Shown here: piece after piece, positions 19,509-55,600 of the stretch | How positions within the stretch are numbered: the first letter of the stretch is position 1 | Layout of the letters: the number at the start of each line of letters is the position of its first letter | DNA from: Trissonchulus latispiculum | Lineage: Eukaryota > Nematoda > Enoplea > Enoplida > Ironidae | Direction of reading: 5' to 3' | Length of the DNA: 64,000 nucleotides | NCBI GenBank assembly: GCA_030248195.1 | Contig: JASAND010015780.1 | Location: forward strand, 186,001-250,000 | The notes under the pieces: model-generated | The model's database searches: none | The model's input: only the letters and a program-made list of their open reading frames with translations | Told to the model about the DNA's origin: nothing | Translations under genes and position numbers: made by a program

Positions 19509-21219
19509 ATTGCACCAAATGTTTCTACGTAAAATCTTATTATCTTAAAATCTTATTAGCTAGAAAGATTTTAACATTAAACACATTTTCCGTTGCACCA
19601 AAATGTTTTTGGGTAAAATCTTTCTAACTTCTATTTAAAATCAAATCTAATTAAGGGTCACGTGACTAAAACAGCCTATCAGAAACCGAGCGGCAGCTTT
19701 GAAGTAGTAGCTCTGTCCAATTATAAAATACTAATGTCACGACAGTGTGGAACTGTTTAAAATCTAATTGTTCGTGTTTTCAAAACTTTACATTCTTAGG
19801 TTAGCTACGGTTAGCATTAGCTTGAATGTCAGAAACGCTACGATTTTACTTATTTGATGGTAACATATTGTGGCAACCTGAAACTACTGTTCTTATCTGT
19901 AACTGTTATGAATGCAGCCATTTTTCAGGATTTCATTTAGTAAGCAATTACATCAACCAAAAATTGTTTCTGTGCAAGCTTGTACACGGAAATGAATCTC
20001 TCCAAATTTTGAATCTATTTGATTTCTTTTTTGTAAGTACACAAACTAAATTAATCGCTCAAGAAAAATAATGGAGAAAAATAAATACAGTGAAAACTCC
20101 GAAAATTCGTGCATTTTGAGATTTTCACGTTAAACAAATTTTAAACATAGTCCGAGGCATGCTTAAGGTCGTGCTCCCCTTACATGCAGATATAGTTGCA
20201 GAAACTGCAATTATTGCCCAATTTCATTCAAATTTTTAGAAAATACATCGGGAATGATAATAAACGTCCTGCAAAAACGCCAGCTTCATAACATTCATGT
20301 ACAGTGAGAAACAGAAATTTGAAGTTCTAGAACTATATATAGAAAATTATTCCCAGAGATTATAATCATTTTAAAGCTTATTATGTGCTCTACAACTTTG
20401 CTTTTAGACATAAGTCTCTAGCTCTTACCGTTTTTGAGCAGTGAATTTTTGATCAATTTTTGCTCGAAAATTGGTTATTTTTGACACGTTCTTGCTGAAA
20501 ACAGGTTTTGTCGAATTGGAGCCAGTGTACACTACAAGCGTAGACAAGTTTATACTCAAATGAAAGAGCTTCGAAAGAGGCACAAATTAGGTTAATTAGA
20601 GCCCTGTACACTGAATGAGTCTAAAGTTCTGGTCGAATAACTGATTTCGTCAAATTGCGGCCAAAATTTTTTGACCGAAGATAGCTCCACAACCAATGGG
20701 TGGATCTAAAAGATATTTTGCACACAGTATGTTTGGACAATTAGCCCGGGGCGGTTTTTTGTTTTTCTCTTTATCAGCCTCCAATTAAGAGCAATGATTT
20801 TTCAAAGTTGGATAAAATGCCAAATTTTCAGCAAATGCCCAATTTCTGCATACTGAAATGATATTTTGACAAAATCAAAAAACCGTCCCTGGCAAATTAT
20901 CTCATAAACACATTGGATACAACCATTTTCTTGTTGCTTAAAATTTTTTCAGAAAAAATTTTGGTCAAAAATTGTGGCCGCGTTTGGTACGTTTGCGAAA
21001 AATCAAAACTAGGTAGACACGTTTCAATGATACCAAACGACGCAGAAGATGTAGAGCTTCATTTTGATATGTCGCTCAATTCATAGCTCTCAATATTGAG
21101 TAAGTTATAGCTTTCCAAATTGGACTGAATGTAAGGGGAGTGCGACCTTAAAGTCTAATTAATTTTCAATAGGTAATCAGATTTTAAACAGATTTTAAAT
21201 ATATTTAAGTTGGTGCAAT
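19509..21219. mobile_element. MITE with ATTGCACCAA termini, hosting a TTAA element
   Basis: It begins ATTGCACCAA (19509) and ends TTGGTGCAAT (21219). Both ends are followed inward by A/T-rich runs with AAAATCT/AGATTTTA repeats. A related right end (AGATTTTAAACACAGTTGGTGCAATCG) occurs at about 41780-41805. Most of the interior is the TTAA-flanked element 20167-21147, a nested insertion. Confidence 0.55.
20167..21147. mobile_element. TTAA-flanked MITE, GGTCGTGCTCCCC family, copy 1
   Basis: TTAA (20163-20166) is followed by GGTCGTGCTCCCCTTAC; the right end is its inverse GTAAGGGGAGTGCGACC followed by TTAA (21148-21151). It is 981 bp without coding capacity. A second, inverted-orientation copy of nearly the same length is at 43684-44661. 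TTAA duplications with such TIRs are typical of piggyBac-type elements. Confidence 0.85.
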
Positions 21220-22090
21220 GCTCTGTTCATTTAAGGTGGTGATTCCTTTTAGAGACATCAACTTTGAACCATTATTACTCAACCATTACTTGGAGTTAAG
21301 AAGCCATTTTTATATCAAAATGCAGCGTTACATTTGCTCTTTCTAATGACTAAAAGGAAACTAACTTTAGTTTTTGGAAATTATTTTACTGCATTTTCGA
21401 AGTAATTTAATTTTCCAGATTTTTTGCAGACTAAAGTAAATTTTTTCGTGAGGCATCGGCCACATCATTCGATTCCACTATCAAATAGCTGGGGACCCTT
21501 TTTTAGTTATTATGAAACCGCTCTTCGTTGTAAAGAAATTAGCTAAAATGTATGCGCAACCTGGATTTTGCCTACTTTTCCCAACTTTGGCAAGCGACAA
21601 CTTTAGCTAAAAAGAAGCAATCGGGACAACTAAAAAAGGATCCCTGGGTATTTTAGTGTAAAACACGTCCAGTAAGTGGCAACCTTCTAGCTTGCATAGT
21701 AAATGCTCCACGATCGCTGAAAAAAATTTGGTCATGTTTTTCCAAAAACTACAATTTCTATGATAGCAGCGTACGGGGTAACAGTTAAAAGATTATACTG
21801 TCACGGATAATCGGTCTCGACGAGACCTTCAAATTGACACCCGTAGTTTAATGTTACGGCTTACGTAGCGCAAGAAATGACGGATTATTTGATTTCTGCA
21901 AAAATGACAAGTTTTCAACCCCAAAATAGGAAAATCGACTATATCTCACGATAGCGAAAAGCTAGAAAGGTACTTCAAAAAGCAAAAATGTAGAGCTCAA
22001 CAAGATCTTTCGAGTGAATATAATTATAGCTTGGGTAAATGAAATAATACCCGAACGAATATAATCTAGTTTGGGGTTTCCCCTACGAAA

Positions 22091-22333
22091 TTGTATCTAC
22101 CGCCTAGAACTGAGTATACTGCCTTAGGGCAACGTCATCTTTTTGAGCGACATTCCTTGTTTTTTCCGGCCGTAGCGGGCACTTTGACACCTACTTCTAC
22201 TGAAGCGTTGACTTTCCATTATTCTAGTATGGGGGGTTCGGGTGTCCTTGATTTGCTAGAAACACTTCTCCCCTCCTATTACTATCCCGGCACGAACTGT
22301 TTTGAATCCGTCCTCGCAGACCCTTCATATTGA
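22091..22333 (+). pseudogene. fragment of an unrecognised ORF at the left of the GC-rich insertion
   Basis: The frame has coding-like composition similar to the ORFs downstream and ends at TGA 22331-22333. It has no ATG start and begins close to the left insertion boundary, so it looks like the 3' remnant of a longer frame. I see no domain. Confidence 0.35.
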
Positions 22334-22572
22334 CTAATTGTGCTTATAAAATTGTTCTACGTATATATACTGTATCTTTGTTTTTGTGTTTTTATTTTAG
22401 CTGGTTTTCTTTTGCTTCCGGTCGATCAGGTTGGTCGTGGCTGCGGCGTTTTCCATCTGGAATTGATCGGTCCTTTTCAGGTAGTTTTATTCCGTTCTCC
22501 TTTTTTTAATTAAATTAAAAAAGGAAGTGGGATTGTAGTTACGCCAGAAAATTTTTCTTGTTCTTTTTGAAT

Positions 22573-23112
22573 ATGAGCCATAAGAGAGTCCAATTTTTAG
22601 AGTCTGAAGCGGGGTCTGAGTCAGCAGGGACAGGTGAACAAAGCACTTCCCCGTCACAACAGGCGGGGGCGGCTGGGGGTAGTCGTCCACGGCGGACTGC
22701 TGTGTTAGCAGAGGGAGCTGCGGGGGGCCAATCTGCTGCGGGAGAGGATCGGGCTGAGTCTACTCCGTCCGGATCCGCCCGCCTGAGTCCCCGCCTTCCC
22801 GTACTCTTCCCGGAGGAGTTTCCCCAGACGTTCCCCTTAGTTTCCTATGATGTCGTGGCCTCGCGTTGCGCGAATACGACGGTCCCGTTCATCACGTTCC
22901 GGGATTCGGCTGACTCGAACCATTTTCAGTCATATTTCGATATGATTCGAACTCTGCGACGCATGCAGCCTTCACTGGCGGCAGCGGTTCGTGTCCTAGC
23001 TAACATTGGTGCTCTCATCGACGAACTGCCAGTCATCCATCAGAGGGCTTTAGATGCGGGATTTCTATGTTGGGATCTTGAGGGACTTTATCAGGAGTAT
23101 TGGGGGGGATAA
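22573..23112 (+). pseudogene. N-terminal segment of the GC-rich polyprotein-like ORF
   Basis: It opens at ATG 22573. The first ~70 residues are disordered (Ser/Gly/Ala/Pro-rich, acidic). They are followed by LFPEEFPQTFPLVSYDV and a helix-rich stretch of conserved-looking character. The frame stops at 23110-23112 directly after a run of seven G (23102-23108). The next frame continues the same helical region without a break, so a one-base slip in the G run, mutational or from sequencing, separates them. Function unknown; position and composition would fit a capsid/gag-like protein, but no known gag motif or zinc knuckle is present. Confidence 0.5.
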
Positions 23113-25969
23113 GGCTCATGAATTCCTTGCCTTGATCCAGTTAGTCGTTCCGCGTGATTTGCACCGGTTTTATACGGAGCGGGATCATTTGAATCCTCGT
23201 GTGCCTCTGACAGCGGATTCCAGTATCCAGATTTACCTGATCCCAATCTATGTCTTGTTGTTTCAAGTCCCGTCTTGGCATTTTTTGCAGGCCTTGCTGG
23301 CACCGCTGTTCTATAATACGACCTATGCCTTGATTGAGTGTACGGTTCTGAATGATATCCGCCGCCTGCTGGTGACGTTGAACATCGATTCGCGGAATTC
23401 AGCAGTAGAACTAGGTTACCTGAATCGGCTTATAGCTGATCGGGCTCAGGATAGGGATTTTCAGGAGGGTTTGCCCTTGGGGCCTTGTGCATGGATGGCC
23501 GCGGACGAAGTTACTCCTCGACCTCCGCCAGTGAATCCTTCTCGCGCTGATGCGGGCGTCAGGTGGCAGCAGGAGCATATCCTTCGCTACCCGGCGCAAT
23601 TCTTGAAACCGAAGAGCCCGGGTCGGGGTGGAATGCATCCACTTCCGAATGTGACTGAGCTTGAGTACGGGGCTAAAGACGTTCGCGATGTGATTCTAAC
23701 GGTTCAGGCGTTCATCCATTTCGACCCTGAATTCGGTCCTCAGCAGTTTGTCCAGCTTAGAAGGACGTCCTGTTATTCTCAGAGAGGTAAGCCGGAAAAA
23801 ATCACTGACTTGGCAAACTTTTATGCTGTCACATTTGATCCCCCGTTGCCGACTGAGTCCTCTATGCCGCTGTGTCTGCGGGAGGGTGCCGCAGGGAAGA
23901 AGGATTGGACCTGGGAACCGGTGTTGTCTATACGGTCTTCGCGCCCGCCGACACACCCGGTCCCTGTTCTGACCTGGATGACTACGGTACCTTGGTCCGA
24001 GAGGCCGGCTCGTGTTGCCCCGGTGTGGATCGGCCCGGAACCGAGGCCTAAGACTAATCGGCGCTCTCTCAGAATGGCCCGGCGCGAACGGGAGGAGCGG
24101 AAAGCGGAGTCGCAGGCAGTTGAACGCCAGCGTGTTCCAGATCTCTAACCATCGGAACGAAGTCCTGATCCGAAACGCGTACATTGGCAGGCAGGGGTCG
24201 CAGGAGTCCATACTGACTACTACAGCTACGGGGCTGTCTACGGAACAGTCTCGGACGACTTATGATCAGATTGTTGATACGTCAACGGTGGTCGAGACTT
24301 TAGATGATGCGGCTGCCGCTTGCCTGCCGGGGCCGTCGGGAGTGAACGGGGCTGGGAACCGCCCTTGTTCTACCGACCAATCCCGGGGGCTCAGGCAATG
24401 GATACGTCCGACTACTCTTATTCCATTCAGCCACCGGACGTGCTTCCTGAGACTCCGGTTAAGTTGCTACAAGAGGAATCGGGGTTCCTTCCTCCGGCCG
24501 ATCACTCCTCACCGGTGGTGGTTGTGACTGCCGAGTCAGCTGCAGCGGCTCTCTCTGGCGTTGGAGTCTCATCTGTGGTCCCCCCTGGGTTGGTCGGCTC
24601 GGAATGCGCCGTATCCCAGGGAGGTACTCAGGCTGGGGTCTCTTCTGACTTTACGTTCCGCACAGTGGGAGGGGTATCTACTTTACGCCCGTCTGTTGTA
24701 GGGAGTGGGGGCGGCCTGTTGGGTCCGGTGCCGGGTTGAGTGCAGCCTCCGCGGGCTCGTTTACCGGCTCCGAGTGCGCCGACTTTGCAGCCTGCGGGGT
24801 TGCCCCCGATTGTCCCTGCACCGCGCCCGATACGCCCTCCTGCCTCTATGGGCTTGATGGTATACCCTGACGCTTCGGCGGAAGGCTATCGGGCCTACTA
24901 TATGGATGCTGTACTGGTTCGGGGTATGGTCGAGACTGTACAGAATGCGGGTGGGACTGATTTGTTGTATCCTGTGGTGGGACAGCCGGTGGGTGCGGCG
25001 GAGGAGGCCATGCTGCAGCAGCTGCAAGCACTCCCGGTCCGTGATCCGCCTGCTGTCCCTCCTCAGCCGACGTTCTCAGTAGGGACTGAGAGCGAAGGGG
25101 GTCAGCTCACAGTTGAAACGTCAACCTTACAGACGTCTTCAGGACGAGAATCGCTGCCTCAGCCCTCGGCGCTGGTGGCTGAGCTGTCTCGTATTTGGTC
25201 GCTGCCGGATCAACCGACGTTGTCAATTCAACAGCCGGGGTGGCGCGAAGTTCTGCGTACAGCACCACGGCTGGAGGAGCCGTTACCCAGAATCGGTAAT
25301 TATACCGGCGTTGCCCGCCTCTATTTTTCAGATGCCTTCTGGCAGCGTATTCCTCAGGTGGAATCGTCACACCAGCTTGACTTGCTGACTCAGTACGGGT
25401 TTCCGGTAGATCTTTTGACTCAGAGACTTGGGCGGGGTCCCCCGTGGACTGCATCTGAAGTGGCGTTCCAGGTAATGGCGGAGGGTGATATGCAGGTTGT
25501 GGATCTCCTTCGGGTGCTGTTTCCGCGGGAGTTTCCCTCCCCGTTTCCGGAGGGGATGGATCTCTCCTGGGGTCGGGTACTCCTGACTCCCTGAGAGGCC
25601 GGCTCGGAAGCGCAGTGCCCGTCCCGTTCGGCTTCGGTGGGGGCAGCTCCGTGTGATGCCGCGCCTTTGGGGGCCTCCCGGCCTGCTCCTCAGCCACTGA
25701 CGTCCTCTCGGGCGGACGCTGTGCGGGACGAATCCCCAACGATGGAAGTTCCTCCCTATGCTCTGCCGCCACCGCCACCGGTTATCTTCAGTGATTCTAT
25801 TGTTTGGCCCCTTGGCCACGTACTTTCGCCTCAATTTAACCAGGTAGTGCGCAATCTGTCTGTGGTGGGTCCAGGTTCTGCGGTGCGGGGAACTTTGACC
25901 CCGTTGTCGGTGGATCCCTTCTTTCGACGACTTTCCCTTTTTACCCCTTTATGGGTCCTTTTAAGGTAG
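23109..25969 (+). pseudogene. middle segment of the GC-rich polyprotein-like ORF (frameshifted)
   Basis: Coding continues in one frame to TAA at 24146-24148, moves to another frame for about 24090-24330, and returns to the first until 25969. That last stretch contains only two stops, both TGA (24737-24739 and 25592-25594), as expected from deamination of CGA codons. Visible parts are a helix-rich domain (about 23110-23450), a basic Arg-rich tail (about 24000-24130), proline-rich linkers, and a second occurrence of the LFPxEFPxxFP motif at about 25520-25550. That suggests an internally duplicated domain. No catalytic motif is recognised. Confidence 0.5.
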
Positions 25970-26790
25970 GCCCTCCTTATCATGGGCCCGGGGGGCGCCG
26001 ACATTTCCAGGATGGCATGGATCTATATCAAATTTTTCCGGGGGAGGACCGGTTCGGGTTGCCTGATGATAGGTTGGCTCCATCGCCCCCATTTGTGGGC
26101 ACGCAGACCTTAGACTCCTATTCAGCGTCAACGGTCCAGCGTTTGGTGGACGCTTCACCGACGGCAGTTCCGTTTCGGCCTTGGTCGGATCGCCACTGGC
26201 GGGTGACCTATCTTCCGGATGTGCGGTCTCAATCGGGTCCGCCGGGGGTAAACCCTTACTGGAGGGTTACATACGATTATTGGATGGAATGGCTCACGGG
26301 TCAGTCTGCGCCGTTTGCGGTACCCGATACGGTCCTGGATCGCTATTTTCATACGATCCGCATGCTATTTCTTGAAGGCGTCCAAATTAGTCATGAGCCC
26401 ATTCCGGCGCCTCCAGAGCATGCTGACTTGATCTTTCCGCCGGAGAGAGCTGATGCTTGGCAGTGCACGATTTCCTTTCCGTCTCTGGCACGGGATGGGG
26501 AAGTAGTCTTCCCACCGGTTACCCTCGTAGGGACGGGGCCTGTACAGTCTTTGGCCTCAGTAGCGGCCATTACGCAGTTTGTTCCTTTCCTACGGGTGTA
26601 CCCTTCCCTGCTTATGTTCCAGCCGTACAAGGAGTCGCTGAAGTACTGGAAGGATAAGTTGGCTCGTTTTGTGCACTTGGTTCAGTCGGTTATACAGGAT
26701 TGTATCCGTCACCCGGCCATGGCCTCGGAAGCGGTCATGCGGTACGGTGCAGTCAAGGTCTTCCAAGCACCAATTCCCCGGCGTCTAACA
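25951..26790 (+). pseudogene. unrecognised segment just upstream of the NADAR domain
   Basis: The frame opens at ATG 25951, overlapping the end of the previous frame, which suggests a -1 shift near 25940-25968. It encodes a Pro/Gly/Trp-rich segment with several aromatic clusters, then a hydrophobic helical stretch (around 26540-26700). At about 26760-26790 coding passes to the frame that carries the NADAR domain. No family is recognised. Confidence 0.45.
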
Positions 26791-27398
26791 TGTATAGGAT
26801 TGAAGTGCTTGATGAGAAGGGGAACCCTCAGCCGGAATATTTGGAAATTTGGGGGCTGCTTTTCCAGGCTTCTGAACTGGCTTACCAGTTTGGGAAGATA
26901 TTTATCTATTTTGGACTCCTAGAGCCGGGCCGTTATTTAGCTAGCTTGGGGTGTCCTTTTCAGGCTATGAAAGCGACAAAGCATTATGGGAAGGGGTGGT
27001 TTGCCCGCATAGTGCAATATCGCAACATCTGGGAAGCCCCGGACAATCATATGCGGGCTATGCTTATGCTGGAAATTCTCCGGGCTAAAGCTCAGGTCTG
27101 CAAGCCTTTCGTAGATTGGCTCTGCGCCTCAGGGGTGCGTATTCTGGTTGAAGCTACGCCCAACCGCTATTGGGGTATTGGAAAGTCTGTCCCCGTGGCG
27201 GAAAAAATGGGGCCTCATGACTACCCTATGTTGGCTAAGCTTGGTACGACAGATTACCAAAATTGGATGGGCAAAGTTTTGATGCTCCTGCGGGCTGAGC
27301 TTTTCCCGATTTGGGTGCTCAAGTTCTGTCATTGTGGGAGCATAGACAGGAGCAAGATCGGAATGCGGCCGCGGAAGCTTACCCGCAGTAGGGTCTAG
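26786..27398 (+). pseudogene. NADAR (YbiA/DUF1768-type) domain segment
   Basis: NADAR domains are glycosidase-like enzymes. YbiA acts on riboflavin-biosynthesis intermediates, and others remove ADP-ribose from guanine in DarT-type systems. After a short lead (MYRIEVLDEKGNP), family-typical elements appear in order: an SELAYQFGKI segment like the sE.ayQa.K motif; a W followed by MRAMLMLEILRAKAQ; then LVEATPNRYWGIG; and finally NWMGKVLMLLRAEL. The order, spacing and the WG.G and G..LM.LR.EL signatures are convincing. The usual FSNF opening is not obvious, and the N-terminal part is divergent. The frame ends at TAG 27396-27398 after a basic tail. It is probably the C-terminal domain of the same polyprotein, reached through a frameshift. 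Whether it is active cannot be judged. Confidence 0.75.
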
Positions 27399-29195
27399 CG
27401 TTGGGGTTTGGTTGTTGTTTGTTTCGAGAGTCCTTTTTCTAAATTTTGATTGAAAAACTTTTCTAAAGTTTGCTTGGTCAACTTTTCTAAAGTTTGCTTG
27501 GTCTTGGAGGAGTATACCCTTGCCCTGGTTTCGGTTCTATTTTTCTTGTACTTGTGTTGATATTTATGTGTTTATACCAAATTCCTTGTTTTCATTTTAG
27601 ATTAAATTGTTTTCTCTTTTCACGAGTTAAAATCTAATCAGTTAGTTTCACTTGCAAAAATTGTCTGTTTTCTTGCACAAATTTTTGATCCTTCTTAGAT
27701 TAAATTTGGCCTTAATCGAGGGCTTGGTTTTGGCAGACCGTTGGTCCGGAAACTGTTGAAATTAGGCGGTCTCGAGGGTATAGTCCACCAGGGTGTGATA
27801 GTGGGTTTTCTGCTGTTTTTATACTTTTATGACACTAACTTTTCGTAGTACTTTTTACATCGTAGTCCTGTTAGAATTTTAATAATGCAGTACCCGTGGC
27901 CGGGCGGTCTGGCTCCCGGCCTGGAATCCGGCTGGGTGCCTGGATAACCCTGTTTTCTGGGGCTCCTTTGAGTTTTGTGGTCTTCATGGTATTTTCAATT
28001 TACGCTACTTCCATGTTTTCCGGTTGTTTTTTAATTGCGGGTTTTACATTCTATTTTTGACGGATATAGTCGGGATTTGCAATCGGTGCTTTTGTCGTTT
28101 TGATTATTGTTTTCATATTTCTTGCCTTATGTTATTTTGCCATATACTACTTATATGTTTTTGTGTGTTCTAGATTGTTTTGCGTGTCTTTGGACCCTCC
28201 CTGCCCCCCTGTGGGTTGTGCCGTTGGAGTGTGCCCCGTGGTCGGCTTGGAGGAGGTGCCTTGTTTGGCACGTATCAGCAGTCTTGGGCTAGCTGCGTGG
28301 TGTTATCTTGCTGACTTTCGGTCCTTCTGGATGGCCTGCTTTGGTCGGCTCAGGTTCTGTGTGGCCCGGATGTTGGCCTGGTTTCTTGGTTTTGGCTGGA
28401 CTCCTGGTTCTGGTTTGTCTGCTCGGGCCTCCGTTTGGCGTGCCCTGGAGCTCGGTTCTGCCTGACTTGGTTTTCTGGCCTTGCCGTGGAACGGTGCAGT
28501 TTGGACTGTTAGGCTGATGCCTTGATTGGTGGTGTGCGGTTGCTGTCGCCGTTGTTGTTTGCCTGATTGGACTAGCCGATGTTGTGATTCCGAGCCGACG
28601 GATGTCCCCTCCTCTGCATTCCAACGAACACTGGCATTCCAGTTCTGTGGTGTTTTGTTTTTGTTTTGATGTCTATTTTAATCTTTGTGGTATTAATTTT
28701 GCAGCTTTTAAGACAGTTAACTTTAATTTTTTTCACTTGTGGCCCATATATAGTGCCTTGTTTTGTTGTCGTACTTAACCTTTGTATTTGTTATTTTCGC
28801 CTATGTTACATAATAAATTCGTATGTATGTGTTCTTTTTTAGTTAGGACTGTTTGAGCATTACTCGTTGGGTTGGGGTTCTGTTGTATGCTTGTTCCTCT
28901 CCTTGTGTTGCTCGCTCCGGTGCGGTCGTTTTGTATGTACGTTCGTTGTTCTAATTGTTGGTGGGGATAGTTTCCCTAGTTGGTCGATCGGGAGCAGCCG
29001 ATTAGTTTAGGTCTAAAGGGCGCCTAAAAGTTGGCAGTGTGCCTAGTGGCACGGTAGTCTGCTCAGACACGCGGCGGTGTGCCGACGTTTTTAGTTATTT
29101 CTTGTATTAACTCCTGTTTTACCTTCTAATCTTTACACTAGACTGCGCAGTCGAAAATTTTATCTTTAACGGTTTTCTAACATTTACGGTCTGAA
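27399..29195. other. T-rich non-coding 3' region of the GC-rich insertion
   Basis: About 1.8 kb with long T-rich tracts and no believable ORF. A 24-bp direct repeat (starting AACTTTTCTAAAG) occurs at 27456-27479 and 27480-27503. The part from 28190 to 28620 is GC-rich and biased toward TTGG/CTGG words, giving an accidental frame on the minus strand. Confidence 0.5.
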
Positions 29196-29710
29196 GGGGC
29201 GGGCGGCGGCAAGAGGGGGTATTTTGTAGAATATAGGATACGCCAACGTGCTAAGCCTAAGTTTAGAGAAACTAATTGTGAATTAGTGAACAATATTTTA
29301 TGAATAATCAACATAAAATTAGCATTGCCTAATCTTGTGGCTTACTATGAGTCATATACATGAGCAAATTCAAGATGGCTGAACAGGTTCAGTTGTGGGT
29401 AGGTCTGTGAAGTGGGTCGGTTGGGTTGTAGAGTGAGTTCGTCTCTGCCGTGTTTGCTGTCCATTTTGTGACTTGCCTTCATAAGTTGTGAACTAAGGAT
29501 TGCTGGTAATTTGGATGTTCTAGTTCTTTACTTGATTATCAGAATAAATCTCTGCTTTTGGTTAGAACCTGGTTATCCGATAGAGCTAGTTCTAGTATTA
29601 TTCTAATTTGCTAGATAACACACAACACTTTATTTGTCTAGGACATCGCACACCTACGACGAGAACTTGCAACTTTACGGTCCGTCATCTTGTGAATCTA
29701 GCACCAGGGT
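29196..29710 (+). repeat. candidate polypurine tract plus LTR-like segment
   Basis: A purine-rich run (GGCGGCAAGAGGGGG, about 29203-29217) is followed by a segment whose sequence character differs from the flanks, with an AATAAA at about 29542-29547. This resembles a PPT followed by a 3' LTR. No matching 5' LTR is found near 22.0-22.5 kb, so the evidence is only positional. Confidence 0.3.
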
Positions 29711-30595
29711 TTCATACCCGACAAAAGTGACGTCGAATTTTTGAAGCGGGATTACGCGGAGGGTGTTAGCATGCTAAAAGAACTTATTTTGGAAAATTTC
29801 ATCAAATTTCATCTTGATTTGAACCGTCAATCAACAATATGTGCCCAAAAGGAATCACCACCTTAAGGTGGCGCTTGCATTACCGGGAAAATGGCTATTA
29901 AAAATTAACCCCTGGATGGATTTGGCTGAAACTTGGTGGAAATGTGTACCAGGGTGCCCTGCATCTTTTAATATCCTACTTAGGCGTGACAATTGAAGGA
30001 GTCTGCAGTAGGAGCCAAAAATGTGTTAAAAACCACAATTTTTTACTTTTACCATGCTGTTGTGGCTATAGAATAGTGTAAAAGCTGCAAACATCACGTT
30101 GAAAGTTGTGAATAACCCATTATGCCAACCTTTATTTACAAGCCACTTCTAGAGCACACTACTATCCTACACCGAAGAAAGTAAACCCTTTCGCTAAGTT
30201 TCCTATTCATACAATGTAACGCGACACGAATTTACTAAACCAAAGAACAATAAATTAACAACAACGTCAACAAACAAACAACAATAAGAATAAAAATTCA
30301 AATCCTTGAACAAGACATAACTGCAACACACGAAATAAATACAATACAGCAAATAACTAAAAATTGTTCCTGAGGGCAGAAGAGATAGGAGGGCATGGAA
30401 GGAAGGGTGAGGGAGGTGGAGGAAGTGTACATCAAGCCAGCTTGAAGCAGTGCAACCTTTCCAAATTCGGATAAGCTAGCAGCATTAAGATTTTGCACCG
30501 TTTTAAAGCGATTTTAGGCCAAAATTTTAGAAAAATTTTTCAAAAAATGACCATTTTTCGACCAAATTTAGCTAGCTTTTTGGGGCCAAAAATCG

Positions 30596-32660: not shown

Positions 32661-33250
32661 ACTATGACCTATATATACGACCTATGCATAACGCATGCAC
32701 GTAACCGTATCAAGAAATTTCAAAACGTTCCCGTTCCTGTCTATAAAGCCAAAGCATAGCTAATGGTAACATACATTCACCATGCTAATATTGGTACATT
32801 TACACATTTTTTTCTAAAATTCTCACTGCACGCAACGGTTGAAGCTCTAAAATTGGGTACAGTTGCAGAGAATATTCGAATGCAGGGACAATTTTTTCAG
32901 ATTTTCAAAAAACTTCGCAACGAGGGAGAAATATATCGATGAAATTTTCAAAATTGATTTTTGATCGCAATACTAGTTTAAATTTAAAACGGGAGAAATT
33001 GTCCCTGCGCTAAGTTAATAAATACGTTTATGCAAAGTTTCAGCAGCTTTGCTTGAACAAGTAAGGAATGGCATCATTTTGAAAATTTGAAATTATCACT
33101 GCTGTGTAAGTCATAAGCCAGCCACTTGAAGTTTCAAAATTGGCGCATGAGCACTACTTACCACCAACTACAATCCCTGAAAATTTGAAACAGATTGGTT
33201 AAGAAATGAATCCAGGAGAGTCGTTCCCGGTAATGCAAGCGCCCCCTTAA

Positions 33251-34105
33251 GGTGGTGATTCCTTTTGGACACATATTGTTATTTGGCGGCGTAAATCAAG
33301 ACGAAATTTGATGAAACTTTCCGAAATAAGTTCTTTTAGCGTTCTAACACCTTCCGCGCAATCCCGATTCAAAAATTGGAGATTTCCGGTCAGAGTGGTT
33401 TTTCCCAGTTTCTGAAAGTTTGACAGCAGCTATCCTGTTATGACTATCAAATAATCCAACATTTCTTGAACTACGCAACCCGTAAAATCAAACTAAGGGC
33501 GTCGGTCTGTAGGTCTCACAGGGACAAATTATCCGACGCATTATCGTCTTCCAACTGCTATCCAGTAGGCTGCTATCGTAAAAAAATGTAGTTTTTGCAA
33601 AATCACGACCAATTTTTTTCCAAAGATTGTGGAGCATTCACCATGCAAGCTGGAGGGCTGCTACTGATCAAATGTGTTCTGCACAAATATACCCAGGGAC
33701 GATTTTTTAGTTGCCCCGATTGCTGCTTTCTAGCTAAAGTAATCGCTTGACCAATTTGGAAAAAGTAGGCAAAATACAGGTTACGCACACATTTCAGGTT
33801 ATTGCTCTATAACGAAGAGCGTTTTCACAATAAATAAAAAGTCGCCCCCAGCTATTTGATGGAGGTATCGAATGATATAACCGGTGTCTCGCGAAAAAAT
33901 TTACTTGAGTCTGCAAAAATTCTGGAAAATTATACTTCTTCTAAAATGTGTTAAAAATATTTATAAAAGCAACATTAGTTTCGTGACATGCATTAAAAAG
34001 AGAAAATGTCAAGCTACATTTTGATATAAGAATCGCTTCTTAACTCCAAGTAATGAATGAGTAATAATGGTGCAAACTTTATGTGACCAAAGGGAATCAC
34101 CACCC
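33251..34105. mobile_element. intact 855-bp TTAA-flanked GGTGGTGATTCC MITE
   Basis: TTAA (33247-33250), then GGTGGTGATTCCTTTTGG; the right end CCAAAGGGAATCACCACC(C) is followed by TTAA (34106-34109). There is no coding capacity. Its reverse complement aligns along most of its length to the two flanks of the GC-rich insertion, which makes it the empty-site reference for that insertion. Confidence 0.88.
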
Positions 34106-34139
34106 TTAAATTCTAACTCTTCAATCTAATTTCGTCTGA

Positions 34140-35790
34140 CTATTTACAATGTAATGTTATCAGAAACAAACACCCCCGCAATGTCAAAGTCCTGTATTTC
34201 AAATCCCAAAGTCTTACAAATAAAATTGAAGCTCTTAAACTAGAGGTTACTGAAATTACGGATATTGGTTACGGATATTGTATGTAGATATGTAGATTAG
34301 GTTACGGATATTGTATGTATTGCCGAAACATGGCTTACTGCGGCTTATGACAATTCCTTTTGTGGTTTAAAGGGTTATTCTTTTTGGCGAAGCGATAGAA
34401 AACACGGTGTACATGGAGGCGTTGCAATATATATACGTGAAAATATTAATGTAAAAATGGTGAAAGTTGAAAGTTACGGACCAATAGAATTATTGTTTTT
34501 GGACATATATTTCTCTAACATTAAATTTAGATTGGGTACTGTTTACAGATCTATGCTAGCCTCTCCAGATAACAATAAGATGTTATTTAATGATATGATC
34601 AACTTATGTCTTGTTAATTGTGAATGTTTAGTGTTCGGTGATTTTAATTTCCCTCAGATTAATTGGGAGACTAACGCAGCTACCAATGAAACTGCTAACG
34701 ATTTTCTGCAATGTATTAGCTCCTCAGGATTAAACAATCTCGTTCACCAGCCGACGAGAGGTAACAATGTCTTAGATTTGGTGCTTTGTAATGATGTTAG
34801 TCTTGGTTATATTACTGTCTCTGAGCCTTTTTCTACGAGTGATCATGCAAAAATTCAATTTGATTTTCAGATTCCAGACGAAAAGTCTGTGAAATTTAAG
34901 TGTATCCAAAATTTTAATCTAGCTGATTGGGCAAGCATGGAAATTTTCTTACATACCATTGACTGGGAAGGTTTGTTTAGTGAAAGCAACGATGTTAATG
35001 ACTTGTGGGAAACGTTTTCGAATATTATTGAAATTGCAGTAGAAAAATACGTCCCTAAAAGAAAGCCAACTGCAAAAACGCAAAATTTGTCTAAAGATGT
35101 GAAACTTAAAATATCCCTAAAAAGAAAATTATGGAAAGTTTATAAGTTAACTAAAGCTGTCGAAAGTTCTAGGAAATACAAGCAAGCTGCTTGTGACCTA
35201 AGACGCTTACTGCGTAAGGAGAAACATGATTTAGAGGAGCGCATTTCACAAAAAAAGGACAATAAAGCTTTATTTAATTATGTTCGTAGTAAACTAACTT
35301 CAAAAGGAAGAATCCCTGCGTTGTCGGGTCCTTTAACTGAAGCTTTTACTGATATTGAACAATCAGACGTTCTAAATAAACAGTTTGCCTCAGTGTTCAC
35401 TTCTAATGATGGAAACTTACCTGCAACTCCTTTGAAGACCAATGATTCTTTAACCCATGTAGTCATTACTGACCAAGTAGTCCTGAAATAATTGAAAAGG
35501 GCACCTACAAAGATCTCAGCGGGCCCAGATGGTATCCCGTCACAATCCCGTCATAATCTCACCGTCACATCCTGAGAACTACAGACCTATTAGTTTAACT
35601 TCTGCATGCTGCAAAATTTTGGAGCAAATTGTTAAGGAGCATTTAATGGAATTTCTTGAAAAGTGTAATCTAATTACTAAATCGCAACACGGATTCCGGA
35701 GGAAGTCATCTACACTTACAAATTTAGTAAGTACTCTTCATAACTGGATATCCGCAAAAAACTTGGGGCTTTCAACCCATTGCGTTTATG
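34140..35790 (+). pseudogene. CR1/L2-group LINE, copy 1: endonuclease and N-terminal RT, truncated
   Basis: The frame from about 34300 encodes an apurinic-endonuclease-like domain (AETWLT at about 34325, GGVAIYI, then GDFNFPQINW near 34640 and SDHAKIQFDF near 34840), a linker, and the beginning of the reverse transcriptase. Upstream, a tandem duplication of the words GGTTACGGATATTG (34262-34320) introduces stops. At 35489 a TAA interrupts, and near 35541 about 120 bases of RT (the segment before the YRP motif) are deleted. The copy breaks off at about 35785 inside the RT, just before the catalytic FAKAFD block. It is closely similar to copy 2 where they overlap. Confidence 0.85.
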
Positions 35791-36801: not shown

Positions 36802-37572
36802 TTAACAGCGATCAGGGTGGTGCCCCCGTTTATTACAATACTGACAAGGGGGGAATCGTTTTTCCCTCACATTCTCCCATTCCTTCAACTTTTTCCAAAA
36901 TTGTGCCTCAAACCAGTCCTTCCTCTCTCGCAGCTCCAGCCGAGTCGCAGGTGCTGAATCAAGAGGGGCCACCCCCTCTTTTGGAGAATTTTGAAGTCCC
37001 ACTTGAGAAGCCTGAGCAACACAGGCTGAAGAATCAGAAAAATCCAGTTTAGAATCGCGAGATTCTAATTTATCTAATATACGTAGGATTTCTCCTAGAG
37101 TCGGCTCACCTTTACCAAAATTTGAAGCCAAAGCGAAGGCATACTCTGACCGGATCCCATTAAATAGTTGCTGCACGCAGTGCCTTTCTCGATCTGCGTC
37201 AGATGGCCAAATCTCCAGAGCTTGAAATTGTAGCTCCGACACATACTGGCGCACGGACTCTCCAGGCTGCTGAACTCTCTGAACGAAACGGCGGAATTTT
37301 TCACAAACTGACAACTGGGGTTTTGAGAATTGAGTAGACATCAGGTGTATAAAATTGTCTATTGAATCCACAATACCAGGACCAATTTTGGAGGCATAAG
37401 TCAGAGCCTTCCCAGACAGTTTGCTAAAAATGAGGCGAGCCCACTGGTTTTGAGGGATTCCTTGAACAGTAGCAGCTGATACAAATTGCGGGAGCCAGTC
37501 ATCAAAATATTCCGAAGTTGGTTCGAAACGTGGTATATCTTGCAAAATAGCCATAACGATATAGCTGCGCAC
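36802..37572 (-). pseudogene. Gag polyprotein with CCHC zinc knuckle
   Basis: Gag packages retrotransposon RNA into particles. The frame has the classic retrotransposon Gag fold signature: FDDWLPQF, a helical capsid region with KFRRFVQRVQQPGESVRQYV (the typical gag segment before YxxEL-like residues), and near the end a zinc knuckle CQYCNKRGHHPDRC (C-X2-C-X4-H-X4-C). It stops immediately after the knuckle. Upstream frames (37861-37502 and 38480-37731) appear to carry the Pro/Ser-rich N-terminal part, separated by frameshifts. Confidence 0.85.
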
Positions 37573-39100: not shown

Positions 39101-39227
39101 AGCCAGACCTATGAATTTAGACAGAAGTGATGTAAAATCATTGAACGTTTGTCAAAATGTAATATTAATTCACTTAGGCTTAGCAACTCGAGTACAATTT
39201 ATATCTTTCCTGTCGGTGCTAACTTCA

Positions 39228-41750
39228 CAATGTATTAGCTTCTCAGGATTAAACAATCTCGTTCACCAGCCGACGAGAGGTAACAATGTCTTAGATTTGG
39301 TGCTTTGTAATGATGTTAGTCTTGGTTATATTACTGTCTCTGAGCCTTTTTCCACGAGTGATCATGCAAAAATTCAATTTGATTTTCAGATTGCAGACGA
39401 AAAGTCTGTGAAATTTAAGTGTATCCCAAATTTTAATCTAGCTGATTGGGCAAGCATGGAAATTTTCTTACATACCATTGACTGGGAAGGTTTGTTTAGT
39501 GAAAGCAACGATGTTAATGACTTGTGGGAAACGTTTTCGAATATTATTGAAATTGCAGTAGAAAAATACGTCCCTAAAAGAAAGCCAACTGCAAAAACGC
39601 AAAATTTGTCTAAAGATGTGAAACTTTAAATATCCCTAAAAAGAAAATTATGGAAAGTTTATAAGTTAACTAAAACTGTCGAAAGTTCTAGGAAATACAA
39701 GCAAGGTGCTTGTGACCTAAGACGCTTACTGCGTAAGGAGAAACATGATTTAGAGGAGCGCATTTCACAAAAAAAGGACAATAAAGCTTTATTTAATTAT
39801 GTTCGTAGTAAACTAACTTCAAAAGGAAGAATCCCTGCGTTGTCGGGTCCTTTAACTGAAGCTTTTACTGATATTGAACAATCAGACGTCCTAAATAAAC
39901 AGTTTGCCTCAGTGTTCACTTCTAATGATGGAAACTTACCTGCAACTCCTTTGAAGACCAATGATTCTTTAAGCCATGTAGTCATTACTGACCAAGTAGT
40001 CCTGAAATACTTGAAAAGGGCACCTACAAAGATCTCAGCGGGCCCAGATGGTATCCCACCTTTACTGTTAAGAAAAATGTCGGCTGTTTTAGTTACTCCT
40101 CTAAAACATATTTTTCAGCTATCATTAAACTCTGGAATTTTACCTGATTGTTGGAAAAAAGCCGTAGTGATACCTATTTTTAAAAACAAAATCTCACCGT
40201 CACATCCTGAGAACTACAGACCTAGTGGTTTAACTTCTGCATGCTGCAAAATTTTGGAGCAAATTGTTAAGGAGCATTTAATGAAATTTCTTGAAAAGCG
40301 TAATCTAATTACTAAATTGCAACACGGATTCCGGAGGAAGTCATCTACACTTACAAATTTAGTAAGTACTCTTCATAACTGGATATCCGCAAAAAACTTG
40401 GGGCTTTCAACCCATTGCGTTTACCTAGATTTTGCTAAAGCCTTTGATACGGTTAGTCACTCTAAGTTACTTCATAAATTAACATGTTATGGGATTAGGG
40501 GACAAATTCATAGCTGGATTGCCTCTTTTCTTACAGGTAGAACTCAAAAAGTTAGAGTTAATGACGCCACTTCTGATACGCTTCCTGTTTTAAGCGGGGT
40601 GCCTCGAGGTACTGTTCTAGGGCCGGCATTATTCTTAGTGTACATAAACGATATGTCTGATGTGATTTTGAATTCCAAAATTAATATTTATGCTGATGAC
40701 GCAAAAATTTATGTACATACAAAAGAGGATGTTTCACAGCAGCTACAAGAAGATCTTGGTCGGGTTAGCAATTGGGCTAATACATGGCAGCTTAGCCTGT
40801 CATTTACAAAGTGTCTGGTTTTTGTGTATGGTTCGGTTACTGGCCAAGACCGAGTTATATACACTATGGGTAATCAGAATCTAAGAACCACAGAGAATTT
40901 GATGATCTGGGAATAACTCTAAGCTCAGATATGAAACTGCGAGCACAGTGTAATAAAGTTTCTCAAAAAGCTAACAGAATTGGTGCATGCATCTTCAAAA
41001 GTTTTGAGACTAGAAGTAAAGATTTCTTGTTGAAAATGTATAAAACCTATGTTCGCCCAATCTTAGAATACAACTCTCAAGTTTGGTCTCCTTACCTCTT
41101 GCAAGATATTGATTTAATTGAAAACGTTCAAAGACGGTATACTAAACGTATACCTGGGCTTCAGAGTATGCAATATAACCTGAGGCTGGAAGCACTTGGT
41201 CTGAAGTCATTGGAACTCCGTCGACTTTTAACTGATCTGAAACTTGTTTATAATATTTGCCACCACAGAGTAAATCTAGCAATGTCTGACTTATTTGTTC
41301 TCGCAGATAACCCAGGGTTAAGAGGGAATAGGTTTAGGTTTAGACCTCCCATTTGTACTAGAGAGTCTACAAAAGCCTTTTTTACAAATAGAATAATTAC
41401 CGTATGGAACAGCCTGCCGGATGTAGTAGTAAGTGCACCGAACCTTGACAGTTTTGAGCGGTCGTTGAGTGTTATTAATTTGTCGAGTTATTTAAGGGGT
41501 AGAGGTATCAAATAGCCAGACGAGTGGCTTCCCTTACCTCTTTTTCTGAAGATTGGTTTTGTATTGTTGATTTTGTCTTTGTTTTCTTTTTTCTCGTTAC
41601 TAAAGGTCATTAGATCGTATATTAGGTATATACGTATGCCTTTGAATTTGTGTATTTTGTTTACTAAAACTATGATATTAAATCATTTTTGTGGTACCTT
41701 GTGTTTTTCTTTCTTCAGAAATAAATAAACTTGTTTGTTTGTTTGTTTAA
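39228..41750 (+). pseudogene. CR1/L2-group LINE, copy 2: linker, RT and 3' end
   Basis: Starts inside the endonuclease domain (same point as 34711 in copy 1) and runs to the element's 3' end. RT landmarks are HGFRRKSST, YLDFAKAFDTVSH, SGVPRGTVLGPALF and YADDAKIY. After the RT come the CR1-type tail motifs YVRPILEYNSQVWSP and FFTNRIITVWNSLP, and a stop at 41513-41515. Defects visible: a nonsense TAA at about 39627 where copy 1 has AAA, and a frameshift near 40894. The 3' UTR ends with an AAATAAATAAAC stretch and (GTTT)n, the short tandem repeat end usual in this group. The copy is 5'-truncated. Confidence 0.88.
41727..41748. repeat. (TTTG)n 3' tail of the LINE
   Basis: AAACTTGTTTGTTTGTTTGT marks the 3' end of the LINE copy. 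CR1/L2-group elements end in such microsatellites instead of long poly(A). Confidence 0.8.
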
Positions 41751-43636: not shown

Positions 43637-43683
43637 TTAAAACGTTCTAAGGTCGTGTTTTATGACGTTTTATCACGTTTTAA

Positions 43684-44661
43684 GGTCGTGCTTCCCTTAC
43701 ATACAGTGAATTTTGTAGAGCTGTATCTTATTAAATATTTGGAGTTCTGACATCAACCGCATATCATTGTGAAGCTCTTCGTCTTCTGAGTCTTTTGATG
43801 CTATTAAAACTAGTCCAGCTTGCTTACATCGGGCGCTACCTTGCCAAACAGACCCACAATTTTTGACCAAAAATTTCTATTAAAATTTTTTGTGCGAAAC
43901 GACATTGGTCATATACACTGTGTTCCTGAGATAATTTGCCAGGGACGGTTTTTTGATTTTGTCATTACATCTTTTCAGTAAGCAGAAATCTGCAATTTTA
44001 TGAAAATTTCCCATTTCATTCAACTTTGAAAAATCATTTCTCTTGACTGAAGACAGCTAGAGCGAAAAATCAAAAACGGCCCCGGGCAAATTGTCCCAAG
44101 AGTCAGTTCCTACAATATCGTTCTTATCTCTCTACTGGTTGTGGAGAAATCTTCGGCCAAAAAATCTTGATCGCTGTTTGGCAAAATCAGTTATTCGTCA
44201 AGAACTTTTGCACTCATTCAGTGTTAAGGGCTCTGACTAACTTAATTTATAGAGCTTTTAAACACCTTCAATTTGAATATAAATTTGCCTGATTTTATTA
44301 AGTCTATATGCAGTAATGGAAACTTCGTTTTCAGCAAAATCTGCTCCAAAACAACCAATTTTCGAACGAAAATTTTTCAAAAAATCACTACTCAAAATCG
44401 ATAGCAGCTAGAGCTTTACGTCTAAAAGCAAAGTTGTAGAGCACTCAATAATCTTTAAAATGAGCACAGTTAGATGACACAATTTGCTTCTTATAGTCTA
44501 CAATGTCAATTTTTCGTTTCTCACGGTACATGCTCGTGACGAAGCCCGTCTTTTTGTTGAAAGTTTGTAACCCCACATGATGTATTTTTCGAAAATTTGA
44601 ACAAAATCGTACCGTAAATGCGCTTTCTGGAACGGTTATTGAACGTAAGGGGAGCACGACC
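43684..44661. mobile_element. TTAA-flanked MITE, GGTCGTGCTCCCC family, copy 2
   Basis: TTAA 43680-43683, then GGTCGTGCTTCCCTTAC; the right end GTAAGGGGAGCACGACC is followed by TTAA 44662-44665. The length is 978 bp. The interior aligns to the reverse complement of copy 1 (20167-21147), for example CCAGGGACGGTTTTTTGATTT, with clear divergence. Confidence 0.88.
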
Positions 44662-44665
44662 TTAA

Positions 44666-52652: not shown

Positions 52653-55600
52653 ATGTCCATCTTGTCAAATATTTTCTGCATTAAATGTCAGTGTCACAAT
52701 ATAGTTCAAATCAGCTTGCTGGTGGTGTGTTTGCTGTCGTGCTTCGTTCCAGTATCGTCAATAGCTGAAGATGTGAGCCTGAGTAGTGGCCGTGAGAGCG
52801 AAAATTGTCATGAACAGCATACGACTAATGAGATAATTAAGGAGGCTGGTCTGAGTGCAGACAGTTTGTCATCGAAGAAGCGGTTGTCTCGAATTCGCAG
52901 TCTGATGGAAGCTTATGATGCTACTGGTCTAGGTTCTCGACGCCGACGCAGGCGTGCTTCAGACGATGGTGGGAAAGAACGTTTGGTCCTGGGCTATATT
53001 GCTGGCAGCATGAGATTGATGGATTCTTCCCTCTTCGGAAGATCATCTCGGCGCATGTTTAAATCGCTACGTTCTCGAACGCTTCCTGTCGGTGGCTCCA
53101 GTCTTGGTTCCGGCGGCGGGCAGAGCGTGCTTGATCGGGCACAGCTTTTGTATCGAATGGGCTATGCCGATGTTCCAAAAAATTTGCAAGGTAGGTCTGG
53201 TTGTCTTCTGCACGATATGTTTGACAGGGTATTTCTTAGGGATTTTTTGCGGTGGGGCTTCCCGCCTCCCCCCCCCCGGCTCCCCTCCGGGCCCGAGGGG
53301 AATAAATTTGGGGGGATTTTTTTCCAAAAATGAACAGAAATGGTATTTTTTCGTCTATTTTGCTCGTAGAAACGAAAAAGTCTCCGGCAAGGCAGGGAAA
53401 TTTTTGAAAATTTGCCCCGTTTTGGCAGAAATGTAGACCTCATTAAGGGGAAAGCCCAAAATCCCGGGGGACGTCAGTTTCGTTCGCCCCCCCTCCCTCT
53501 GTGAGGTATACGTATATACGTATATAGAAGATGCTTCTTCACTATGATGTATGTATGTACGTTTTAGGGTTGGTTTTTTCCGGAAAAAAAGATTGCCGGA
53601 AAAAACCTTTTTTTCCGGTTTTTTCCATTTTTTTCCTTTTTTTCCGGTCACCTCAAAATTCACCAATATGCTAAAAGTTGTGTTATTTTATGTTTCTGCA
53701 TGCATCAAAGCCGTTTTCAACATATTTAATAGTCCCACCGTGTTGTGCGCACTTACGCAAGCGGTTACAAAGGTTTCAGTATTGATTACAGGAATTAATT
53801 TTTTCAGCAGACAATACTGTAGAATAAACTACAGGTGACTTCTGTATACCTTGACGGTTCTGCTAGACCTGGTCTCTGGTTTTCGTAGGTAATACACATC
53901 GTAAAGTAAAGAATACCAGACGTTTTAAAAGGTTTTGGCTTAACATTCCACTGTTAGACATAGAATTGTTAAGTCTACCTGAGTTACGCAACCATATTAT
54001 ATATATATATACACATTCAATGGCAAAAAATCTTAAATCCCAGAATTAGCTCAAATTCATGGATATTGTCATATTAATTCATTAAACAGTGTTTTTGATA
54101 GTTTCTTAATGTTCTGATTTCATAAATTAACTTTCAGAACATCTCTCGAATATTTTTCCATTTTTTTCCGATGCTTCGAAAAAATCCAAATACAATTTAT
54201 ATAGTCAGATTTAGCATACCCCCGCCCCACCTACTATGACCCACGGAAAACGTTGTAAATAGTGCGAAATCGCAGGAAAAGTTCAGAAAACATTATATTC
54301 CGCTGTAAAAATCGTTAAAATAACACTAGGAATATTTTTCCATTTTTTTCCACCCCATCGGAAAAAAATGGAAAAAAACGGAAAAAACCTTTTTTTCCAG
54401 TCCTTTTTTCCGCGCCCATCCCTAGTACGTATAAATATAAACTAGTGTGTATGAGTGTGTGTTCCTGGCATGTACCGAATGCTTCTTCTGAATTTGCTTT
54501 TCAACTACCAAAACTAGAAGTGTCAGGCGCGCGAGGGAGCGGGCGGCGGGGGGGGGGGGGGGGGGGGGGGGCGGGGGGGGGGGGGGCCCGCGCCCGGGGG
54601 GGGCGCGGGAGGGGGGTGGGGGGGGGGGGTCGGGTGGGGGGGGGGCGCGGGGGGGGGGGGGAGGAGGAAGGGGGGGGGGGGGGAGGGGGGAGAGAGGAGG
54701 GGAGAGGGGGAGGAAAAGAAGAAAGGGAAGGAAAAAAAGAAGGGGAGAGAGGAGGGGAGGGGGGAGAAGAAGAGGGGGAAGAGGGGAGAGGGGGGGAGGG
54801 GGGGGAGGGGGGAGGGGAAGGGGGAGAGGGAAGGGGGGGAACTAAAAAGTGTATATAAAATTCTTTGCCTGTAGACATCTGTAGACATCTATATCTGCAA
54901 TCTATATTAAATATATAGTATTTTTATAATACGAATCTCGTGTGCGTAGTGAATAATGTTTTAGGGCACAAGATATCTGGAGCCATTCGTTATGCTGTTG
55001 AGTCGGTTAATCAAAATATCAGTCTTGGTGCCTACGAATTGGACTTTGTCTTCAACGACACCCATGGACGTGCTGTCAATAGTACGTAATAAAATATTCA
55101 AGTTTTTGTCACTTTTTGGGCTTTTCCTAGGGAATTGTTCCTCCGGGAGGCCCACGTTGTATCAGCAAAGGACTGGGATGGGGACAGGTGTATATATACA
55201 GGGCAGAGATTTTTCAAAATCGGGACTGCAGCGTAGATTTTGTTCTTTTTTGAGTGATAATAGATAATAGAAACGTAGGTGCGAAAATCACAGTTATCAA
55301 AATATGTAGACACGTTTGTCAACAAATGAAAGCCCATGGCGAGGCTGGCCAGCATTTTTCATCTGGCTTTTTTAGGGTTTTTGAAAGTGGGTGGCGAGCC
55401 CAGGTTACAATATACGTAGCTAACAATTCAGAGCTAGCAGGGTGTTCAAGTTTTTATTATTCTTGTGACGAGGATTCCGACATAGATATAATTATGGCAC
55501 GTCTGTCAAAATTCATGGCGCTGCAGGTGTAGCAATGTTCACAAAAATCACCCCGAAAATTCACAAAGTCACCCACCTAGACGGCTAACAACAAGCGGCA

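Follow-up and report, generated by a model that had tools for sequence, protein, structure and literature searches.

A NADAR domain at the end of a giant post-pol open reading frame in Ty3/gypsy-type retrotransposons of the nematode Trissonchulus latispiculum

A 64,000-nucleotide stretch of the Trissonchulus latispiculum genome (assembly GCA_030248195.1, contig JASAND010015780.1, positions 186,001 to 250,000; hereafter the window) contains a GC-rich block that is a decayed copy of a giant Ty3/gypsy-type long terminal repeat (LTR) retrotransposon. The copy consists of a spacer, a broken giant open reading frame (ORF) of the post-pol type that ends in a NADAR domain, a long T-rich 3′ noncoding part and a 3′ LTR (Table 1). 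From position 22,070 to its 3′ end, it aligns with gaps at 68–80% nucleotide identity to four other copies in the same genome (C3763, C9016, C5158 and C14536), corresponding to about C9016:10149-17782 of a 17.8-kb element.

The window copy and its NADAR domain

The 5′ LTR, gag and pol are missing from the window copy, so that the type of its carrier is invisible from this copy alone, and its giant ORF carries six frame changes and three stops. A six-frame scan of the insert reported no RNA-virus polymerase, and a Pfam scan found no family in the upstream part of the giant ORF. An earlier assignment of 22,064-22,331 as the end of an upstream ORF was dropped; the sequence from 22,070 onward aligns past the 203-aa (amino acid) ORF of C3763.

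Table 1. Features of the retrotransposon copy and of the repeat that holds it, in window coordinates. MITE, miniature inverted-repeat transposable element.
Feature	Coordinates	Strand	Evidence or remark
MITE-like repeat, left part (received the insertion), TTAA-flanked	21231..22069		terminal inverted repeat 21231-21258
Giant Ty3/gypsy-type LTR retrotransposon, 5′-truncated decayed copy	22070..29723	+	nucleotide alignment to relatives
Giant ORF, upstream part, interrupted by frame changes and by three stops	22573..26766	+	translated comparison with the 1,609-aa C5158 frame
NADAR domain, open frame	26769..27308	+	profile, fold, active-site residues
Glu34 codon, taken as E43 (P. nicotianae NADAR) and E88 (E. 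coli C7 NADAR)	26874..26876	+	invariant in 49 aligned NADARs; role from PMC11543638
Lys41 codon, taken as K50 (P. nicotianae) and K95 (E. coli C7)	26895..26897	+	invariant in 49 aligned NADARs; PMC11543638
Glu126 codon in LVEAT, taken as YbiA-family E125 of P. nicotianae NADAR	27150..27152	+	invariant in 49 aligned NADARs; PMC11543638
Giant-ORF C-terminal tail, frame differs from NADAR	27302..27373	+	tblastn, 91.7% over 24 aa
Polypurine tract region (GGCGGCAAGAGGGGGTATTT) immediately 5′ of the 3′ LTR	29205..29224	+	like motif precedes the 3′ LTRs of C9016 and C1881
3′ LTR, about 499 bp (TGTAG...CCGACA)	29225..29723	+	both ends align to the C9016 LTR, 70% and 79%
MITE-like repeat, right part	29733..29866		terminal inverted repeat 29839-29866; 89% to uninterrupted copy
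MITE-like repeat, uninterrupted copy, the empty-site reference within the window	33247..34108	-	nucleotide alignment

The NADAR domain matches the PF08719 profile with an E-value of 2.5e-7 (31.5 bits), has a YbiA-like predicted fold, and retains the three catalytic positions listed in Table 1; a fold search with the predicted structure brought out no other family. Across 20 aligned gypsy NADARs (the window's own and 19 chosen by us from 150 listed matches, which is not a random sample), the first glutamate and the lysine are present in every one, while the second glutamate and the WGxG motif are present in 18, the two exceptions being copies that change frame near there. The catalytic aspartate of the DarTG1-antitoxin type is absent, with a leucine two residues before E126, and the glutamate type is retained. 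Judged by its residues, the NADAR of the gypsy lineage is a catalytically complete YbiA type.

When protein databases were queried with the window NADAR, no relative turned up among 62 and 499 candidates, scans of viral contigs with three window proteins found none, and a phage collection yielded a single weak match (E 0.01). A profile built from six NADARs collected 194 proteins, with PF08719 present in all 120 of the matches listed.

Relatives in the same genome

The entire assembly was searched (733.8 Mb in 21,732 contigs). The PF08719 profile gave 2,478 first-look candidates, and all of the best 150 that were scored lie above the cut-off. With the window NADAR as the query, 47 of the best 150 of 937 candidates share at least 70% identity with it (the window's own match included), and others group around 52%, 49% and 43%. 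Among the matches listed, eight near relatives are stop-to-stop open frames of 1,569-1,631 aa with the NADAR domain at their end, and the upstream segment of the giant ORF is found together with NADAR in the near relatives. In particular, for at least 62 of 113 matches to the upstream ORF (a few loci being counted twice), a NADAR among those listed follows 1.5-6.5 kb further downstream on the same strand, as it does for at least 22 of the first 26. Overall, the lineage comprises five subfamilies, down to about 40% identity, with giant open frames of 1,569-1,790 aa. The fifth, which falls outside the best 150 matches of the window-NADAR search, is represented here by one of its copies (C9249); the 1,695-aa frame of this copy ends in a NADAR that is 62% identical to C5245 and 40% identical to the window. 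Individual bit scores for PF08719 straddle the curated threshold of 35.1, with 39.8 for C5245 of subfamily 4 and 31.3 for C3763 of subfamily 1.

These relatives identify the carrier, which is a Ty3/gypsy-type LTR retrotransposon of 17.8-20.2 kb. The layout of the lineage is a gag-protease frame and pol, followed by one or two small ORFs and then by a long third ORF with NADAR at its end. For example, C3763 has a 1,335-aa pol (reverse transcriptase, RNase H, H2C2 and integrase), a 203-aa ORF and the giant ORF, and both it and C5245 carry reverse transcriptase, RNase H and integrase in that order within a single frame. C1881 has a 1,608-aa gag-protease frame, a putative pol frame, two smaller frames (360 and 361 aa) and a frame of 1,726 aa that has NADAR at its end; its gag-asp_proteas match, upstream of the reverse transcriptase, has an E-value of 2e-5 and, at 25.6 bits, stands below the cut-off of 28.2.

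Further, LTRs, a primer-binding site and a polypurine tract are present in both C1881 and C9016. C9016, which starts at a contig edge, is 17.8 kb long; its two LTRs are 93% alike, and a primer-binding-site-like TGGCGCCCGTGACAG directly follows the first of them. C1881 extends over about 20.2 kb (33638-53864), with LTRs at 53,204-53,864 and 33,638-34,293; its long frames are open, but its LTRs, for which near-identity was expected, are 81.6% alike, its right flank is G/C-rich and it has no target duplication. Its 5′ LTR and the 3′ LTR of C11078 are 97.6% alike; a 5′ LTR of C11078 was not found within the 1.5-kb stretch examined. C1881 may be recombinant or misassembled, and was therefore excluded from dating.

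In two shorter copies, C14393 and C16631, the LTR pairs are identical at 491 of 491 and 492 of 494 positions (100% and 99.6%), and 4-bp target duplications, CTGT and CCAG respectively, were read from their flanks. These near-identical pairs and duplications indicate that the lineage moved recently. LTR pairs 4-5.5 kb apart enclose NADAR sequence at C14393:28885-34334, C16631:10521-14598 and C8188:1-4827; these three short copies are probably internally deleted, non-autonomous derivatives.

A preliminary description, prepared from the letters of the window, had proposed a NADAR domain within a mobile insertion, fused to or following a polyprotein-like ORF. The domain is borne out by the profile match (below the curated cut-off), the predicted fold and the catalytic residues; its mobile setting is established by the LTRs, target duplications and pol of the relatives. 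Of fusion and succession, it was fusion that held, as the NADAR is the C-terminal part of a long ORF, and relatives whose frames are open, linked to the same upstream ORF, exist in the same genome.

Selection on the NADAR domain and the giant ORF

Ratios of nonsynonymous to synonymous divergence (dN/dS) were calculated pairwise by the Nei-Gojobori method within subfamilies, since between-subfamily dS is saturated and was left out. The NADAR calculations also leave out C19013, C10179 and C20619, which have stops or lose the frame early, as well as C8093; C10968 is left out because its protein is identical to that of C3784. NADAR dN/dS is 0.02-0.10 over dS values from 0.06 to 2.66; for example, the window and C9016 differ by a dS of 1.62 and a dN of 0.041, and C15223 and C3784 by a dS of 0.77 and a dN of 0.020.

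Over its first 1,200 codons, the giant ORF has dN/dS of 0.07-0.18 among four subfamily-1 copies, apart from one low-dS pair at 0.42 and 0.24. Within the C9016-C14536 pair, the ratio is 0.04 in NADAR compared to 0.11-0.15 in these first 1,200 codons. The last part of the giant ORF yields 0.04 over 267 codons, mostly before the NADAR, and 0.05 over 376 codons (C5158-C14536), while one pair has a dN of 0 at a dS of 0.04; comparisons with C3763 past codon 1,200 cover 24 codons only. Elsewhere in the element, dN/dS is 0.01 for pol (one pair, 746 codons, a C5158 pair of 3 codons being left out) and 0.19-0.37 for the 203-aa ORF. These values show that strong purifying selection has kept the NADAR domain almost constant, and suggest that the element needs the enzyme for survival in its host.

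In the giant ORF, the four subfamilies compared share one or two long homologous segments at 29-41% identity, and the ORF has a proline content of 10.6-11.8%. From the first methionine on, four long ORFs contain no 19-residue stretch with a hydropathy above 1.78, and the subfamily-3 frame opens with a hydrophobic stretch (2.2) that lies before and around its first methionine. On hydropathy alone, the giant ORF does not look like an envelope glycoprotein. Single-sequence folding of an upstream piece gave no confident fold (predicted local distance difference test score of 36.4).

The insertion site and its surroundings

The inverted repeats that bracket the GC-rich block (Table 1) are 89% alike. 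The uninterrupted copy of the MITE-like repeat aligns to the interrupted one at 79% over 21,231-21,893 and at 89% over 29,733-29,889, with weak or no alignment across 21894-22069; because it matches both flanks, the block landed inside a repeat of this kind. A target duplication was sought around the insert and none of note was found, as expected for a copy whose 5′ end is lost. Nine bases past the 3′ LTR (29,724-29,732; AAAGTGACG) are unlike the empty repeat but similar to the first bases of the primer-binding site (AAAGTGGCG). A complementary DNA (cDNA) left incomplete may have been joined here without normal integration.

Other features lie within the window. A second TTAA-flanked repeat type (TTAAGGTCGTGCT...) occurs at 20,163-21,151, near the inserted repeat, and at 43,680-44,665. 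Two copies of a long interspersed nuclear element, with stretches that are 97-99% identical, are located at 34,457-35,788 (endonuclease match) and 39,111-41,515 (reverse transcriptase). A retrotransposon gag-like ORF on the minus strand (36,802-37,572) matches PF03732 (E 0.015) and PNMA (E 0.048), both below cut-off. There is also an exon of a Jagunal-family host gene at 99-716 (PF07086, E 1.6e-40) and a long G-rich low-complexity run at 54,513-54,858.

Other putative carriers of NADAR domains

The same genome contains NADAR domains in other settings. Six of the eight loci cut from the PF08719 search (L002-L007) have a standalone NADAR frame of 175-182 aa within a gene-dense cassette. The domain scan among these cassettes covered L003 (L003:3-3435, C11883), where NADAR adjoins an ORF with Pox_A32 (2.5e-9) and Adeno_IVa2 (1.4e-5) matches, which is packaging-ATPase-like; the locus also has a TATA-binding-protein (TBP) gene (PF00352, 5.7e-37) and a faint match to viral DNA polymerase B (0.0014, below cut-off). 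By resemblance to the genes of L003, cassettes of this type would be Maverick- or adintovirus-like. The other two loci (L008:1-1938 and L009:1-1938) contain the end of a 689-aa frame with a C-terminal NADAR (2.4e-41), followed in L009 by a protein-kinase frame. Earlier in the 689-aa frame is a DTEG-type motif, which may be exonuclease-like and which Pfam did not confirm. Further NADAR frames of about 175-290 aa occur (e.g. C15008, C11319 and C3326), some perhaps belonging to other carriers.

In a quick tree of 62 NADAR sequences, the 12 gypsy NADARs form one group (Shimodaira-Hasegawa-like approximate likelihood ratio test, SH-aLRT, of 100) on a stem of length 2.29, and the Maverick-like (93) and 689-aa (100) groups are located on the opposite side, among database and phage sequences, with weakly supported attachment points. 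Separate captures of NADAR by the gypsy, Maverick-like and 689-aa carriers are thus a plausible, though not proven, reading of these sequences. A broader and more tentative idea, which we consider rather doubtful, is that animal mobile DNA carries NADAR quite generally as counter-defence cargo: an undescribed host pathway would ADP-ribosylate the nucleic acid of elements, and each element would have acquired its own eraser.

Proposed function and competing explanations

We propose, with a probability of roughly 0.6, that the element encodes a catalytically active hydrolase which removes ADP-ribose adducts or derivatives and plausibly acts against host ADP-ribosylation; catalysis, substrate and host target are all predicted. 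The giant-ORF protein would be produced together with the remaining products of the element, and the NADAR at its end would hydrolyse the N-glycosidic bond in ADP-ribose adducts or in related derivatives of ADP-ribose. The best-precedented substrate would be guanine-ADP-ribose on element RNA or cDNA, so that ADP-ribosylation blocking reverse transcription or integration could thereby be undone. Guanine-ADP-ribose is a substrate that the YbiA-type NADAR from P. nicotianae can hydrolyse (PMC11543638); this and the 16 matches to PARP catalytic exons in the genome count in favor of the proposal. Purifying selection and the complete catalytic residues fit a role in counter-defence, which the preliminary description had also suggested; they do not name the substrate.

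Several observations weigh against the proposed eraser. The window NADAR is below the curated cut-offs of both Pfam (31.5 versus 35.1 bits) and NCBIfam, and its structure was modelled with aligned known NADARs as a guide. A profile search of the genome for DarT (PF14487), the best-known guanine ADP-ribosyltransferase, did not find it. The substrates of E. coli YbiA are riboflavin intermediates (PMC11543638), and the long branch in the tree means that the substrate of the gypsy NADAR may differ.

The riboflavin intermediates also point to small molecules, and small-signal hydrolysis has been proposed for phage NADARs (PMC9503650); the element's enzyme might hydrolyse small signals or toxic metabolites that derive from NAD or ADP-ribose, such as cyclic ADP-ribose variants, instead of nucleic-acid adducts, and so blunt host signalling. 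No sign of a small-molecule pathway was seen in the element, and we regard this explanation as unlikely. A similarly low probability applies to a role in the element's RNA processing (capping, NAD caps or contacts with trans-splicing) instead of defence. The nematode trans-splicing factor SNA-3 requires its NADAR residues (PMC9303266), and NADAR has been suggested to aid the processing of retrotransposon RNA intermediates (PMC12477816); however, evidence specific to this element is absent, and RNA processing alone would not explain the presence of NADAR in the Maverick-like DNA cassettes of the same genome.

It is very improbable that NADAR is a binding or structural module, either an ADP-ribose reader or part of a particle, for which catalysis is not needed: no known domain is present in the remainder of the giant ORF, which may be structural, but the three catalytic positions are retained across all five subfamilies, down to about 40% identity, and NADAR dN/dS within subfamilies is low. 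Finally, although the window copy by itself is broken and without gag and pol, the chance capture of an unrelated host gene or exon, which the preliminary description had named as an outcome that would overturn it, is refuted by the same ORF linkage at many loci and by LTR pairs with target duplications around NADAR.

We know of no base-ADP-ribosylation defence against transposons in animals. Guanine ADP-ribosylating enzymes are found in butterflies and shellfish, with a proposed role against DNA viruses (PMC8053099). A predicted eraser of the guanine-ADP-ribose type that is under selection, that a recently mobile retrotransposon lineage has retained and that also occurs in other elements of mobile appearance in the same genome would give the search for such a defence a definite enzyme and definite elements to start from.

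Comparison with known systems

The preliminary description knew of no established animal element family with this layout. That statement stands for the layout, as no report of a NADAR in a giant post-pol ORF was found in the literature searched, with most subscription journals outside its reach; it does not extend to NADAR in retrotransposons, which has precedent (PMC12477816). In particular, Gypsy-12_Ec32 of Ectocarpus is likewise a Ty3/gypsy element with a conserved YbiA-family NADAR; as far as the two can be compared by description, its NADAR is inside Pol, whereas in this animal genome NADAR forms the C-terminal end of a separate giant ORF that follows pol. The Tx1 LINE of Crassostrea gigas is likewise an animal retrotransposon, with NADAR-like domains in ORF1 (PMC12477816), but by its description it is a non-LTR element, whereas the relatives here have LTRs, a protease and an integrase.

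The DarTG1 antitoxin, a NADAR of the same superfamily that reverses guanine ADP-ribosylation (PMC11543638), has an aspartate where the gypsy NADAR has the YbiA-type glutamate; the latter is fused to a giant protein in a genome where no DarT was found. An extra enzyme ORF after pol, of a kind common to several element classes, is shared with LTR retrotransposons of bdelloid rotifers, whose ORF3 enzymes are a DEDDy exonuclease and a GDSL esterase, with no NADAR described among them (PMC5408684). Finally, animal positive-strand RNA viruses carry NADAR in a polyprotein, where it is proposed to remove host ADP-ribosylation (PMC9503650); the giant ORF is also polyprotein-like, but its carrier is an integrating LTR element.
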